From a virus, in the IMG/VR virus record IMGVR_UViG_3300009326_000014, positions 1 to 22,240 of that record: a stretch of 22,240 bases of DNA. One strand, 5' to 3'. The stretch's first letter is position 1. Each line of letters starts with the position of its first letter. Positions 4,888-17,264 of this stretch are shown piece by piece. Both the position numbers and the translations under genes were made by a program. The notes below the pieces were generated by a model. The model made no database searches, was not told the DNA's origin, and worked only from the letters and a program-made list of their open reading frames with translations.

Positions 4888-4915
4888 AGCTTAGGGCTTA
4901 GAGCTTAGAGCTCGT
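4888..4915. repeat. GAGCTTAG simple repeat
   Basis: Plus strand GGAGCTTAGGGCTTAGAGCT and onward: four GCTTAG/GCT-type units in tandem. It encodes the end of the SEC-C gene and sits just before the tape measure start, another repeat at a gene seam. Confidence 0.55.
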
Positions 4916-5079
4916 TTGAGTCGCACGTTGTACAAGCGGCGTCGCTTGGGCAGGCAACAGCGTTTGTATTTGCGGCCGGATCCGCACCGGCAGGAAGAGT
5001 TGCGAAGCGATCGGACGGTGCGGGCTGCCTTGGCGAGACCGCGTCGCAGCTTGTCAGCGTCGAGTTGAATGGGGATCAT
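4891..5079 (-). CDS. SEC-C zinc-motif small protein
   Basis: 62 aa, start coupled to the GT fusion stop by ATGA. The N-terminal helix (MIPIQLDADKLRRGLAKAAR) is basic. Residues ~27-45 (RNSSCRCGSGRKYKRCCLPK) form a SEC-C motif, 'CxCGSGxKYKxCC', the zinc-binding tail of SecA that contacts SecB and ribosomes. Here it is nearly the whole protein. Its final residues (ALSSKP and stop) come from an AGCTCTA-type repeat. Between the tail chaperone and the tape measure one often finds a small gene of unknown role; a zinc-dependent adaptor for the chaperone or tape measure is an inference only. Confidence 0.8.
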   Translation of the reverse strand: MIPIQLDADKLRRGLAKAARTVRSLRNSSCRCGSGRKYKRCCLPKRRRLYNVRLKRALSSKP

Positions 5080-5842
5080 TGAGTTCTCTCCTGAACACTG
5101 ACACCTGACACCTGACACCTCTCCCGTTCCCACTCGGCCCACTTCCGCTGGTGCTCTTCGAGGACCTGACGATGGGCGTCGAAATCGAAGTCCTCGAGGG
5201 GACCGGCGAAGTAGGGCCAAGTGAGCTGGGGGAGAGTGGCGGATTCGGGCAGAAACTCGAGATTTGCGTATGTACACGAAACCGCGTTCCGCCAGTCCGC
5301 CCGCTCCTCGCCCCACGGTTCCAACTCGTAATACGCCTGCCAATCGGAGAATTGGTCCCAAGTCAACGGCGCGTCGGCGTCGGTCCCGGTAAAGAGCTGA
5401 TCGGGATGCGGGCACTGCAGCGCTAAACAGAGCCGGAAGGCAAATCGGCGAGTTGGGGACCGGTCGAGTCTGTTTTTTTTTGCTCCACCTCGTTGTCGTC
5501 GTCCGGACCCAGGTTGTTCAGTTGGGTCGCCGGGCCCAGCAGCTCGCTGCACGCCCCGATCTCGCCCGACAACCAGTGCAGGCGCAGCGGCGTCGCAAAT
5601 TGCAGATTGCCTTGATCGTCGACGATCGAACGTGACAGCAGCTCCAGCCCGAAAACGTAGCCGGCTTTCTTGTCCAGTACGTTGCCCTGGTCGTCTTTGT
5701 CGAGCGTTTCGGAGAGCTCGACGATGTCCAGCTTGTCCGGGCCGGACAGCCGCTGCAGGCGGACATCGCAGCCCCACGCCTTGCACGGCACGTCGAGGTG
5801 CGTGGGCCGGCCCTGGGTGATCTGTTCGAAGGTTGCGGTCAT
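5076..5842 (-). CDS. Tail assembly chaperone, -1 frameshift (GT-type) fusion
   Basis: Slipping back one base on AAAAAAA (zero-frame CAA AAA AAA) gives a 255-aa fusion: 123 residues of the G-type domain, then NRLDRSPTRRFAFRLCLALQ and onward. The new C-terminal part has the recognised gpT-type signature LTWDQFSDWQAYYELEPWGE, ERADWRNAVSCTYANLEF, like the 'L...L..W..Y...EPFG..R.D.R.A......AN' motif of tail chaperone extensions. Without frameshifting this conserved region would have no suitable start of its own. The last residues (CQVSGVSVQERTQ) are encoded by a half copy of the TTTCAGG-type repeat. Its TGA overlaps the next ATG (ATGA). Confidence 0.88.
5090..5122. repeat. Half copy of the TTTCAGG-type repeat
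   Basis: The plus strand shows CCTGAACACTGACACCTGAC and continues with two more ACACCTG units. It matches the right arm of the 108-bp element with A-to-C changes. It forms the 3' end of the frameshift product gene. Confidence 0.7.
5423..5842 (-). CDS. Tail assembly chaperone, zero-frame (G-type) product
   Basis: 139 aa when read without frameshifting. Residues ~10-110 form the chaperone N domain (THLDVPCKAWGCDVRLQRLS, GPDKLDIVELSETLDKDDQG, GYVFGLELLSRSIVDDQGNL, LRLHWLSGEIGACSELLGPA). Near residue 120 the codons CAA AAA AAA ACA create an A9 slippery run, after which this frame continues only 16 residues (TDSTGPQLADLPSGSV). In siphophages the G-type protein coats the tape measure and recruits tail-tube subunits. 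Position directly before the tape measure region supports this. Confidence 0.88.
   Translation of the reverse strand: MTATFEQITQGRPTHLDVPCKAWGCDVRLQRLSGPDKLDIVELSETLDKDDQGNVLDKKAGYVFGLELLSRSIVDDQGNLQFATPLRLHWLSGEIGACSELLGPATQLNNLGPDDDNEVEQKKTDSTGPQLADLPSGSV
5473..5482 (-). promoter_or_regulatory. Programmed -1 frameshift site (A9)
   Basis: Minus strand CAAAAAAAAAC, read in zero frame as CAA AAA AAA ACA. The heptamer A AAA AAA is in the correct phase for tandem slippage to AAC AGA in the -1 frame. A GC-rich region follows and may fold. It is the only A9 run noticed in the coding sequence. Confidence 0.85.
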
Positions 5843-9785: not shown

Positions 9786-11009
9786 TCAGTCTAACCAGGC
9801 CAGTTTGGGCCGCCGCCGGTACGCCTTCGGCTTCGCGTCGGTAAAGGTTGGCGGCGGGCTTTCCAGCAGTACGATTCCCGCGTCCTTGGCCTGCTGTTGT
9901 CGCCGCTCCCACGCCGTCTGCGCTTGCTTGGCGCGCCGTCTGGCTTCCCGCCAGCGTGCAATAGCCTGGAGGCTTCTTTGCTCATGGGTCCGCTCGTTCT
10001 CGTCCCACGACTGCACGGTCATGAACCCGCGATCGTCCGCGGCGAGCCCATGGCGCGCGTTGTACCGGTCGAAAGTCTCGATCAAGGTGATCGGCTGCCG
10101 CTCCGTGGTGAGAGGCGATTCGAGCAATCGGTTCCGCCGCGTTTCATTGGTCCAGCGCAGCTTGCCGGCGTAGACGTTGATTTCCAAAACCACCCGATCC
10201 GGCATGCCGTCGGCGTAATCGATCAAAGCGTCCGGAGCGTTTGCCGAGTGCGGCGAGATCAGCGTGACGTTGCCGTTCTCGTCGAAGGCGTACAACTCGC
10301 CGCTCTTGTTGACCAGGCCGGCGTGATCGGCCGGCACGCCGGTCGGATCGCTGCCGGCGTCGGCCAAGACGAACACCGGGGTGCCGCCGCCGCTGGGTAC
10401 CGACGTCGTACCCAGGCAGACGTTGCCGCCAAAATACGCCTTGGCATCGGTGCCCAAAGTGAACGCTTCGAGCTGGCTCAACCCCGACGTGATCGTATCG
10501 AAGCGGATTTGAGCTCCGGCGACCAGGCCTGCCGCAAAAAGCGCGGAGCCCACCGGTAAAGAAGCCCCGCCGCCTGAAAATTCGTTGCCGGCGATCTGTA
10601 GTAGCGCGCCTCGGCTGGCTGCCAGTCCCCCGGCGCCGGTAAGCAGCACCCGTTTATTGTCCGTTCCATCCGACGTATCTGTCTTCAGCGCCGTGTCTGG
10701 ATCGGTTCCCTTCAGCGTGACCACGCTACTAGCTGCGAGCGTTGTAAAGTCTCCGGCCGCCGGTGTCGTCCCGCCAATCGCCCCCGGCGCCGCAAGTCGG
10801 GCTGTCAGATTGGCCGGCGTGATTGCTCGCGCCGTATCCGTCCCAGTCACCGCCTCGGCTTCGGTCGCCAATTCGACCAGGCCGTCGGCGACGGTGGTGG
10901 CAGCGTCGAAGCGCGACTGCATTTCGTCGGCAAAATCGTCGAGCGACTCGATTTCCGTTGGGTCGACCGTGGGGCCGACGCCGATGCCTACGTAAAAGAC
11001 GGCGCTCAT
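9786..11009 (-). CDS. Fibre-like structural protein in the connector region
   Basis: 407 aa. Near the N-terminus (residues ~35-90) is the classic fibre motif VELATEAEAVTGTDTARAIT, PANLTARLAAPGAIGGTTPA and AGDFTTLAAS, found in many phage tail-fibre shafts. The centre is Gly/Ala-rich beta sequence, including GNVCLGTTSVPSGGGTPVFV, LADAGSDPTGVPADHAGLVN and KSGELYAFDENGNVTLISPH, the junction that usually precedes a trimeric tip. The C-terminal ~150 residues are helical and basic (QAIARWREARRRAKQAQTAW) and end in AYRRRPKLAWLD, resembling the 'H...LHKRTREEQIAALEARL' endings of such fibres. It lies between connector and tail-completion genes rather than after the tape measure, so it may be a head or neck fibre. 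Confidence 0.75.
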   Translation of the reverse strand: MSAVFYVGIGVGPTVDPTEIESLDDFADEMQSRFDAATTVADGLVELATEAEAVTGTDTARAITPANLTARLAAPGAIGGTTPAAGDFTTLAASSVVTLKGTDPDTALKTDTSDGTDNKRVLLTGAGGLAASRGALLQIAGNEFSGGGASLPVGSALFAAGLVAGAQIRFDTITSGLSQLEAFTLGTDAKAYFGGNVCLGTTSVPSGGGTPVFVLADAGSDPTGVPADHAGLVNKSGELYAFDENGNVTLISPHSANAPDALIDYADGMPDRVVLEINVYAGKLRWTNETRRNRLLESPLTTERQPITLIETFDRYNARHGLAADDRGFMTVQSWDENERTHEQRSLQAIARWREARRRAKQAQTAWERRQQQAKDAGIVLLESPPPTFTDAKPKAYRRRPKLAWLD

Positions 11010-14190: not shown

Positions 14191-15837
14191 CTAAGCCGGT
14201 TGTGCCAGGTGCTTGACCGGGCAGGCCGTATCCTGCTGGGGTCGCAGCAAGTTGCCGTCGACGCTCCAGTAGGCGATGAACGCTGTCTGGTCATACTCGG
14301 CGTACCGTTCGACCAGCCGCTTCAGTCGCAGTATGCCGGCACGACGAACCTTGTAGTACTCCAGCCTGCCGCCCAAAACCGTCTTTGCGCTGGCCTCGAC
14401 CGTGTCGGCCATCTTCTGGTTGATCTCGAATCCCCACCCTTCGATCGTGTCCGGAGCTCCGACGCGGGCGTTGCTCTGATAGATCGGGTTGCCGTTCTCG
14501 TCCTCGATTAGCCGCACGGCTTCCAGGATGTTGTCGTGAAACATGAACCGGCTGCCGGGTCGCAGCGAGGGGTCGATCGAGTGCTGCAGGCCCACGAAGT
14601 CCGCTCGGTCCAAGGCCGCGGCGGCCGCCGCTTCTTGGCCTTCCGGCGTGCGAGGCACAATGCCGCGGATCCGGGTTTGGCCCGTGGTGCACTCGCTGCT
14701 GGTCTTGCGTCCCAACCGTTCGCCCATCATGCGGCCGAGGATGGCCGCCAAATTGAAAACGCTGTCACGCATCAACGAGAAGGGCACCTTGCACATCTTG
14801 CTGTGCATGTCGAACGCGCCCCATTTCACCTGCTCGAATGCCGGATTGGCTTCGGTGCTATGATCTTGGTTTTCGTCGGCATAGGCGCCTTCGTTGTCGG
14901 TGTCATCGCCAACCGGCCAAGCGATTTCTTCACCGGTTGCCGTGGTGATGGTCTCGGCGACTCGAAGGATTGCGCCGAACTCGATTGCCGCCAGTTCGAT
15001 CGACGTAAGCAACTGGCCCGGTGCAACCAGGTATCCGCCGCTGCCACCGGTCAGGCCACTCAGCGCCCGACCTTCCAGCAAGTCAACGAACGCCTCGGCA
15101 CGCTGATCGTGGTGTTTGGAACGGATGGTCCGCTGGATGGTGCGGATCCCTTCGGTCGGCAGTAACTGCAAACGCAACTCGTTCACGGCAGGGTTGAACT
15201 TCAGCCGCTCGCACGCTTCGTGGTGGCGATCGGCGATCGTGTCGTTGTCGATGCCTCGCATCGCCCAGACCGCGAATGCGAGACCGAGATCTCGCTGTCG
15301 AGCGGCCCACTGCCGGGCGTGGTCGCGATCGTCGAATCCGAGATCGCCGTAAGTCCGGCCCTGGCCGTCGGCCCGATCGTCCAGATTCGTCCGGTTCGGA
15401 TCGTCCCGCAGCGATCGCTCGTTGAACTCTTGGGTTTCCGCGCAACGCGCCGCCACGTCGGCCGCCCGCTGCTCTTCCTCGATCGCCGATCGCACGGCGT
15501 CGTAATCCTTGTTAACGGCTTCCCATTCGTCACGCGTGTTATCAGGCCACAGCTCGACGTCCTGGCCGGCGTCGCGTTTCTTCCTCCGCTCGTTGAACTC
15601 TTTCCCGCTCCTCTGGATTTCCGCGTTTAGCTCGCCGCCTTTCTCCCGCAGTTCCTTCAGGCCCAGGTTTTCCTCTTTGCCGCGGATCGTCACGGCGATT
15701 CCCAGCACGGGAGCCAGGCTCAGCGCGGTCAAGAGCTGTGCAGGATCGGTCAGGCAAAGGATGGCCATCACGGCCACGCAGGCGCAGACGGCCAAGGTGA
15801 TCGGTCGTGTCAGGTGGTACGTCACAGAATTTCGCAT
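14191..15837 (-). CDS. Major capsid protein, HK97 fold, with hydrophobic N-terminus
   Basis: 548 aa from the ATG at 15837, chosen for its GAGAGGA ribosome site. Residues ~55-140 are a charged helical region (NLGLKELREKGGELNAEIQR..., then EWEAVNKDYDAVRSAIEEEQ), typical of the scaffolding delta domain removed by the protease. From ~255 onward the mature shell domain begins: ALSGLTGGSGGYLVAPGQL, a hallmark HK97 N-arm motif, then ILRVAETITTATGEEIAWPV, FDMHSKMCKVPFSLMRDS, and the C-terminal AILRLKRLVERYAEYDQTAF. Oddly, residues ~12-50 are strongly hydrophobic (RPITLAVCACVAVMAILCLT, then ALSLAPVLGIAV), a membrane-segment-like sequence ahead of the delta domain. A GTG at 15693 just after it could be an internal start. 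Confidence 0.93.
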   Translation of the reverse strand: MRNSVTYHLTRPITLAVCACVAVMAILCLTDPAQLLTALSLAPVLGIAVTIRGKEENLGLKELREKGGELNAEIQRSGKEFNERRKKRDAGQDVELWPDNTRDEWEAVNKDYDAVRSAIEEEQRAADVAARCAETQEFNERSLRDDPNRTNLDDRADGQGRTYGDLGFDDRDHARQWAARQRDLGLAFAVWAMRGIDNDTIADRHHEACERLKFNPAVNELRLQLLPTEGIRTIQRTIRSKHHDQRAEAFVDLLEGRALSGLTGGSGGYLVAPGQLLTSIELAAIEFGAILRVAETITTATGEEIAWPVGDDTDNEGAYADENQDHSTEANPAFEQVKWGAFDMHSKMCKVPFSLMRDSVFNLAAILGRMMGERLGRKTSSECTTGQTRIRGIVPRTPEGQEAAAAAALDRADFVGLQHSIDPSLRPGSRFMFHDNILEAVRLIEDENGNPIYQSNARVGAPDTIEGWGFEINQKMADTVEASAKTVLGGRLEYYKVRRAGILRLKRLVERYAEYDQTAFIAYWSVDGNLLRPQQDTACPVKHLAQPA

Positions 15838-16142
15838 TTGGTTGGATCCTCTCGGCCGAGGGCAGCGGTGAAAAAGACACGGCGACCGCCCGCCGGCAGT
15901 GAATTGGTGGACCTTCACAGCCGCAAGCCGTCGCCGTATGGACGCCGATCAGAGCTCGCGCTCAGGTTTTGGAGGTTTCGGAGTCGGCGGCCGGCAATGA
16001 GCGATCGGCGTATGGACGCGCGTCAGTCAGAAAGCCGGCGCCAGGTTCAGAGCCCGATTCTGTCCCCACGACAGGCCGGCGCGCGCTTTTTCAGAAAATC
16101 CGTAGTACCGCCTTTAGGCGGAAGAGCCGGCTCAAGCCGGTA
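15838..16142 (-). other. Untranslated leader of the capsid gene
   Basis: A gap of about 300 bp without a supportable gene. Reading with transcription it holds most of a REP-like palindrome, the 15-nt motif, about 225 bp of ordinary mixed sequence, and a good ribosome site (GAGAGGATCC) just before the capsid ATG. In-frame codons extend upstream to 15918, but no alternative start there has a better ribosome site. I see no RNA gene or second ORF here. Confidence 0.5.
16079..16093 (-). promoter_or_regulatory. Repeated 15-nt motif, copy 2 (before the capsid gene)
   Basis: Identical to the motif at 22083-22097 and on the same strand. It extends to TGAAAAAGCGCGCGCCGG, close to the extended copy 3 (one GC shorter). 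It lies about 240 nt before the capsid start, in a leader without genes. Candidate late promoter or regulator site. Confidence 0.45.
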
Positions 16143-16150
16143 CTACGAAC
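16102..16150. repeat. REP-like double hairpin, copy 1
   Basis: GTAGTACC and GGTACTAC form the ends and enclose two hairpins, CCGCCTTTAGGCGG and CCGGCTCAAGCCGG. It is almost identical to the element at 12262-12310. It supplies the TAG stop for the 58-aa membrane protein. Confidence 0.85.
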
Positions 16151-16319
16151 ACCGCTTCGACCAGCCCGACAGGATCCATTGCCCACACAGCGTCACATAC
16201 GCCCCGTAAGCGACCCACACGGGCATAGGAGCAGCCAAGGCCCACAGTGCGAAACCCAGGCAGATCAGCCCCAGGGCTTCAGTGACGAAAGCGATCGCCA
16301 AGTCGCAGAATCGAGCCAT
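16143..16319 (-). CDS. Small two-helix membrane protein
   Basis: 58 aa from the ATG at 16319. Two hydrophobic segments are visible: DLAIAFVTEALGLICLGFAL with WALAA (about residues 5-28), and PVWVAYGAYVTLCGQWILSG (about 32-51), with a short basic tail SKRCS. This is the size and topology of a small holin or other phage membrane peptide, but nothing identifies it as one. It stands alone between a terminator-like hairpin and the capsid leader, outside the tightly packed blocks on either side. Its last codons and stop (TTCGTAG) come from a REP-like palindrome. A longer in-frame start at 16421 exists, but that extension is basic and low quality. Confidence 0.6.
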   Translation of the reverse strand: MARFCDLAIAFVTEALGLICLGFALWALAAPMPVWVAYGAYVTLCGQWILSGWSKRCS

Positions 16320-16577: not shown

Positions 16578-17264
16578 CTACATCCCAAGTTGCCCCGATC
16601 TCACCTCCGCCAACCGAGCCGTAACCCTCACGGCCTCGGCCTCTCGCTCGGCAAAATCCTTGCCGTCCAGCCCCGACCGCTTCCACCGATCGTGCTCGGC
16701 GCGGATCTCCGCCAGGTCCCTGCCCCGGACGCGGACTCCGGTGGTCGTCGACTGATAGGCCGGGAATACCACCGGCCCCACTTCCCAAAGATTGACCTCT
16801 TCAATCTGGCGGATGTATACTTCCCGATCGTCCCGCTCTTCCTCGATCCAGACCACCCGCTTCACCTCGAAGATAAAGCTGGATCCGGAGACGTCGCCGC
16901 GGCCGATCGGCGTGATCACCTGGTCGCGCGCCATCTGCGTGTCCGGTGGATCCACCGAATAGAACAGGCCCGTCTGATCCGACCGCAAGGCCAGCGTCGC
17001 CGGGTCCGATCGGTTGCGGCCCAGCACGATATTGGCGTCGTGATTAAACAGCGACCGCACGTCGTCCTCCTGGATGGCCCGATCGAAGGCCCCCGCCGCG
17101 ATCCGCTCGTACGTGTCGCGCCACAGCTTGTACTCGGTCCCCGGATCGTCCGGATCGTAATACACCGCACCGTAGCCTTCGATCTTCGGGGTCTTGTCGT
17201 CGCTGCGTGACGCCAGCCGAAGGTTCGATCGATCCGCCGCAAGAACACGTTGTTCCGTTGCCAT
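16578..17264 (-). CDS. Prohead maturation protease, HK97 family (peptidase S78)
   Basis: 228 aa; AAGGA lies about 7 nt before the ATG at 17264. The protease packages inside the prohead and cleaves the capsid protein delta domain and itself. Family landmarks are IEGYGAVYYD near residue 28, RIAAGAFDRAI near 54, the catalytic His in DVRSLFNHD (H75), the catalytic Ser in GRGDVSGSSFIF (probably S129), and the conserved acidic and PA motif EVNLWEVGPVVFPAYQST (E161 a likely third residue). The C-terminal Arg/Glu-rich segment resembles the usual targeting tail. It sits between portal and capsid genes as in HK97. A hairpin with a short T tract follows about 60 bp downstream. Confidence 0.95.
   Translation of the reverse strand: MATEQRVLAADRSNLRLASRSDDKTPKIEGYGAVYYDPDDPGTEYKLWRDTYERIAAGAFDRAIQEDDVRSLFNHDANIVLGRNRSDPATLALRSDQTGLFYSVDPPDTQMARDQVITPIGRGDVSGSSFIFEVKRVVWIEEERDDREVYIRQIEEVNLWEVGPVVFPAYQSTTTGVRVRGRDLAEIRAEHDRWKRSGLDGKDFAEREAEAVRVTARLAEVRSGQLGM

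Follow-up and report, generated by a model that had tools for sequence, protein, structure and literature searches.

A hydrophobic front ahead of the prodomain of a viral HK97-fold major capsid protein, and its possible role as a temporary membrane anchor

The window, a 22,240-base record from a viral collection (IMG/VR), encodes an HK97-fold major capsid protein in which about 48 extra residues precede the prodomain. Since codon usage, hydrophobicity relative to shuffles, ribosome sites and leader spacing agree, translation of this hydrophobic segment from ATG 15837 is well supported at the level of sequence. The reading favored here, and held tentatively, is that the front holds capsid subunits at the membrane as a temporary anchor and is removed together with the prodomain by the S78 protease.

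The capsid gene and its predicted product

The head genes lie on the minus strand in the order terminase, portal, S78 protease and major capsid gene (Table 1). Capsid residues 267-534 match Pfam Phage_capsid (PF05065, E 2.4e-38), and the protein matches the PHROGs major head protein family phrog_10 with an E-value of 1.4e-38. A first AlphaFold2 model built from 13 rows was set aside (pLDDT 47.7); the model used was built from 48 rows and has a mean pLDDT of 83.7. In the PDB, Foldseek matched this model to 6tsu, the capsid of a gene transfer agent (E 9e-15), and to 8fqk, HK97 prohead I (E 4e-8). The Pfam match together with the AlphaFold2 and Foldseek results identify the window protein as an HK97-fold major capsid protein.

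Table 1. Features of the capsid region, in window coordinates except for the last row.
Feature	Position	Strand	Remarks
Major capsid protein gene	14191..15837	-	548 aa, ATG start, coordinates include stop
Hydrophobic N-terminal segment	15691..15837	-	residues 1-49, two peaks
Delta-type prodomain core	15403..15660	-	AlphaFold2 long helices 60-89 and 101-145
Linker with EGRALS	15019..15078	-	residues 254-273, largely low confidence; joins prodomain to capsid fold
GTG allowing ordinary capsid protein	15691..15693	-	pairing -4.2; L014 starts MKVTIRG
Ribosome-binding site GAGAGG for ATG 15837	15848..15853	-	-5.8 kcal/mol, 10-nt spacer
Leader	15871..16018	-	two CGTCCATACG motifs, stem, T-rich tail
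Leader CGTCCATACG motifs	16018-16009 and 15944-15935	-	
Leader stem ACGGCGAC/GTCGCCGT	15937-15930 paired with 15886-15879	-	
Possible 58-aa membrane protein gene	16143..16319	-	between protease and capsid genes
S78 prohead protease gene	16578..17264	-	PF04586, E 8.9e-32
Leaders in relatives	L007 4263-4447; L014 13-195; L082 14405-14571; L083 14421-14587; L009 10713-10931		

The front of the model consists of a helix (residues 10-27), a second helix (32-40) and a strand (47-51) that forms a small beta-hairpin with residues 54-58, the sequence of which is common to the closest relative, L014. In the model a helical prodomain precedes the capsid domain within the same chain, and the core of this prodomain was predicted with pLDDT block means mostly of 88-95, falling to 80 toward the C-terminal end. 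The linker that follows has a pLDDT of 43-63 (blocks 251-270) and contains an E-x-R-A-L-S sequence conserved in many relatives, features from which it is presumed to be the maturation cleavage region. The prodomain of such capsid proteins is normally cut off during shell maturation, and its removal in this case is presumed to be by the S78 protease.

The hydrophobic segment and its start codon

The minus strand from 15837 to 15691, in frame with the capsid protein, reads MRNSVTYHLTRPITLAVCACVAVMAILCLTDPAQLLTALSLAPVLGIAV. The Kyte-Doolittle profile over 17 residues has peaks of 2.88 (residues 13-29) and 2.21 (residues 35-51). Neither the maximum nor a pair of peaks of at least 1.6 was reproduced in any of 5803 stop-free shuffles of the segment, and such a pair occurred in 2 of 933 stop-free 49-codon stretches sampled from the six frames of the window, one being the segment itself. 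The soluble-helix beginning of a prodomain, which is usual though not a strict part of its definition, is missing here as well as in the relatives L009 and L032. The earlier note had described about 40 hydrophobic residues ahead of a delta-type prodomain; its coordinates and length estimate were correct, and the front is real and unlike ordinary prodomains. According to the model, helix 10-27 would suit a membrane; the second hydrophobic stretch, which overlaps strand 47-51, is less sure, being a 9-residue helix plus a strand and not a full membrane helix.

The capsid frame opens at 15918, and the first ATG in it is that at 15837. Ribosome pairing at this codon is similar to that at the protease, portal and terminase genes (-6.0, -5.9 and -5.6, respectively), and pairing at GTG 15693 is weaker, yet not nil. 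Since the CTG codons at 15666 and 15660 pair at -6.0, the ribosome site by itself is not decisive for the window. In the window, L009 and L032, the upstream ATG has the best ribosome site of the ATG, GTG and TTG starts, with pairing of -8.1 in L009 and -7.0 in L032, compared with -2.7 for the ATG at the ordinary place in L032.

The synonymous-codon score of the segment was 0.363, against a mean of 0.337 (sd 0.175) for 79 equal-length gene pieces taken, leave-one-out, from twelve window genes or gene parts, the capsid gene being used minus the segment. Only 1.3% of 158 wrong-frame pieces scored as high as the segment. When scored by the codon usage of the capsid body, the segment reached 0.39 versus -0.14 for the 27 codons before ATG 15837, from which it follows that the change in codon usage falls at this ATG. 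The fronts of L009 (0.40 versus -0.09 upstream) and L032 (0.42 versus -1.06 upstream) are likewise coding-like from the ATG onward, and for each of the three fronts none of 1000 shuffles scored as high. As controls, the in-frame upstream readings of nine relatives without a front scored from -0.74 to 0.21. The highest of these, from L007, was also equalled by none of 1000 shuffles, and its third-position GC of 0.65 is not gene-like.

The leader of the capsid gene

The region ahead of the capsid gene contains two hairpin motifs of the form CGTC(C/T)NNACG, the second of which shares bases with the 5' arm of a long stem; a T-rich tail follows the stem (Table 1). The window motifs lie 181 and 107 nt ahead of ATG 15837, and in relatives the motifs precede the capsid start by 184/106 nt in L007, 182/96 in L014, 166/107 in L082 and, with the motif in the form CGTCTTTACG, 218/94 in L009. 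Counted from GTG 15693, the window distances become 325/251; ATG 15837 is therefore favored, since a start at the GTG would break the conserved leader spacing. One motif was found in L080 and none in L015 or L002. A scan of 1.39 Mb of collected loci, a figure that counts both strands and includes overlapping loci, returned motif pairs 40-140 bases apart only before the capsid genes of five contigs (L007, L009, L014, L082 and L083); the window has such a pair as well. In the stem, 5 of 16 pairs are changed on both sides with pairing kept, L082 and L083 being unalignable there. A search of the window leader against Rfam gave no match at gathering scores. The leader may act, as RNA or DNA, to control capsid expression.

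The earlier note had offered GTG 15693 as an internal start yielding an ordinary capsid protein. The site is usable, but codon usage and leader spacing disfavor it, and in L009 and L032 no ATG or GTG at the ordinary place has as strong a site as the upstream ATG. A false start codon, the main worry of that note, is unlikely.

Relatives with and without a front

The survey sample was chosen by likeness to the window capsid protein and terminase and is silent on HK97 capsids generally; it comprised 70 contigs with a matching capsid frame, 66 of them with an uncut N-terminus, which formed 46 clusters at 90% identity. A peak of at least 1.6 over 19 residues within the first 130 residues of the frame was found in four contigs (the window, L009, L032 and L059). 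The front of L059 (peak 3.04, in frame) was not counted, as it stems from a T-run upstream of the start, outside the gene, leaving genuine hydrophobic fronts in 3 of the 46 clusters. The L080 frame exceeds the scanned stretch, and its start, read separately, is ordinary. Of two scans of genome contigs, one gave no relative and the other only the distant L012 and L013.

The closest relative, L014, is 78% identical to the window protein and starts MKVTIRGKEQDL, without the segment. The ATG AAA of L014 lines up with the two window codons preceding V49, and GTG 15693 is the codon that follows these two. The absence of the front from so close a relative indicates that a head of this kind can be built without it. 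The segment is also absent from L015 and L016 (52%), L082 and L083 (about 40%), L002, L011, L018 and L019. L009, which is 56% identical, has the hydrophobic sequence MDRFLKRSHQILLAVVLVTCVVSLVGQASCSADAVVGAISTLGLGLGISL at the same place as the window segment, and L032, from another clade, is extended by about 102 residues, with three peaks, ahead of the point at which its relatives start. The earlier note would have taken homologues without the segment as refuting its proposal: L014 and most others do lack it, whereas L009 and L032 carry hydrophobic fronts.

Shuffling tests did not support homology among the fronts of the window, L009 and L032 (P 0.42-0.76), which are alike only in composition. 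In a tree built leaving out the columns of the segment, the window and L014 are sisters, joined by L009 and then L015, and L032 pairs with L029, which has no front. At least three changes are required on this tree, either three gains or two gains and one loss. The fronts are unlike in sequence and are present or absent even between close relatives; the hydrophobic front therefore seems to be an optional addition that arose more than once.

Other differences were seen among these loci. The capsid genes of L007 (4448-5266) and L080, relatives with terminases 90% and 71% identical, encode a similar prodomain (about 50% and 47% identical, respectively) but a capsid domain of another kind; it looks as though the part behind the prodomain had been exchanged. 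L008 and L014 share the sample number 3300009431 and carry neighboring parts of the head gene order, and they may be one phage broken between the protease and capsid genes. Between these two genes in L009, positions 10149-10571 hold a reading frame that, judged by eye from its motifs, resembles part of a Dam-type DNA methyltransferase.

A possible membrane anchor

In the proposed mechanism, the capsid protein would be made from ATG 15837 with its hydrophobic front of about 48 residues preceding a prodomain of the ordinary HK97 type. The front comprises one helix that is clearly of membrane length and a weaker hydrophobic stretch after it. New subunits would be held at the inner face of the cytoplasmic membrane by a hairpin anchor with both ends cytoplasmic, and prohead assembly would begin or concentrate there. 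The S78 protease would cut the linker near residue 255-260, so that the whole prodomain and the front leave and the head is freed. The front would leave with the prodomain because the low-confidence linker separates the ordinary prodomain from the capsid domain; since it is on the discarded part, the virion need not be spoiled. Membrane insertion, this topology, nucleation at the membrane and removal by S78 are what we infer, and hydrophobicity alone is insufficient to establish membrane contact of the front.

The distribution of charges in the sequence fits a hairpin whose two ends are cytoplasmic. R2 and R11 precede the first peak, the stretch between the peaks has a single Asp and nothing basic, and the second peak is followed by R52, K54, K61 and R64 interspersed with E55, E56, E62 and E65; in L032 a strongly basic stretch lies ahead of the last two peaks. 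The modeled form of the second stretch tells against a simple anchor, since a single membrane crossing would place the capsid domain outside the cytoplasm.

Other explanations were considered. An unlikely alternative is that the gene yields two products: a membrane-bound long form from ATG 15837, in the minority, which seeds assembly, and an ordinary capsid protein, making up the bulk, from GTG 15693 or a CTG just after it. The usable GTG at the place where relatives start, the pairing at the two CTG codons and the ATG at the ordinary place in L032 would allow this; L009, however, has no well-sited ATG or GTG there, its best start being a TTG (-5.7) with the pairing region pressed against it, and the upstream ATG is the better start in all three. 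It is also doubtful that the helices never meet a membrane and instead pack inside the prohead, either with one another to form an additional scaffold core or onto the portal or protease, leaving after cleavage. The front lies at the prodomain's N-terminus, which in HK97-type heads faces the interior, and unrelated sequences of like composition would suffice for a greasy core, but the first peaks of the fronts (2.88, 2.58 and 2.21 over 17 residues) are above those usual for a soluble helical bundle and the charge pattern matches a membrane topology.

Very unlikely is that GTG 15693 is the true start and the segment an untranslated leader open in frame by chance. The frame is open as far as 15918 in GC-rich DNA and the closest relative starts at this point, but the codon usage of the segment, its hydrophobicity when compared with shuffles, the leader spacing and the similar cases of L009 and L032 all argue against it. 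A captured export or lipoprotein signal, cleaved, in front of the capsid gene is scarcely credible, as its basic start and hydrophobic run are offset by the lack of a cleavage motif common to the window and L009 (judged by eye) and export would take the capsid protein away from the assembly site.

Comparison with known systems

The window protein resembles the HK97 capsid with its delta (scaffold) domain in fold, in the N-terminal helical prodomain, in the S78-type protease gene upstream and in the linker at the presumed cleavage site. It differs by the hydrophobic residues before the prodomain, a front that 43 of the 46 sampled clusters are without.

In two sources, T4 prohead assembly begins at the inner membrane (PMC9958956, PMC3185693), and in a third a start at the cytoplasmic membrane is proposed, with release of the head after proteolysis (PMC5694885). 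Membrane contact of T4 is described as involving the portal and a separate viral chaperone (PMC9958956), the system comprising portal gp20, chaperone gp40 and host YidC. T4 is a precedent for heads begun on a membrane, and such a start is proposed for the window too; in the window, unlike T4, the capsid protein itself would carry the anchor. A 2011 review stated that no phage besides T4 was then known to have membrane-associated proheads (PMC3185693), and in the literature examined prohead membrane contact is well shown only for T4, through the portal. The same review places the major coat protein pVIII of filamentous phage in the inner membrane before assembly (PMC3185693). Holding of the major capsid protein at the membrane before assembly is the likeness, proposed in the case of the window; the membrane helix of pVIII stays in the virion subunit, whereas that of the window would be discarded. 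The fold and virion of pVIII also differ from those of the window capsid.

No report of an N-terminal membrane segment on a capsid protein of the HK97 fold was returned by a literature search based on excerpts and search listings. Where the hydrophobic front belongs to the capsid protein itself, one deletion would suffice to test membrane nucleation, and natural pairs with and without a front are available for comparison in the window and L014 and in L032 and L029. The wider idea, that some tailed phages build HK97-type heads at the membrane by a self-carried, disposable and independently gained anchor, with at its boldest a long form that keeps a lipid patch or vesicle as a core to shape the head, is speculative and improbable.

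Origin of the front and neighboring genes

The earlier note had offered two readings, an anchor removed by the S78 protease and a small membrane gene fused in frame. Removal of an anchor with the prodomain appears the better supported, and the front may have originated when a small membrane gene became fused to the capsid gene. No donor gene was found among viral contigs, phages or PHROGs, or by shuffling tests with the 58-aa frame (Table 1). Residues 1-66 had no relative among 56 candidates from viral contigs; a phage search with residues 1-110 (window, L009) and 1-169 (L032) gave a best E-value of 0.3, to the prodomain; none of the three fronts matched PHROGs; and homology of the fronts to the 58-aa frame was unsupported. 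This frame could itself encode a small membrane protein, judging from its codon score (0.22, equalled in none of 1000 shuffles) and a 19-residue hydrophobicity peak of 2.24; the 92-aa frame that encloses it had no Pfam or PHROG match. Elsewhere in the window, among the tail genes on the minus strand, a frame at 4891-5415 ends in a SEC-C zinc-binding motif (PF02810, E 1.9e-5).
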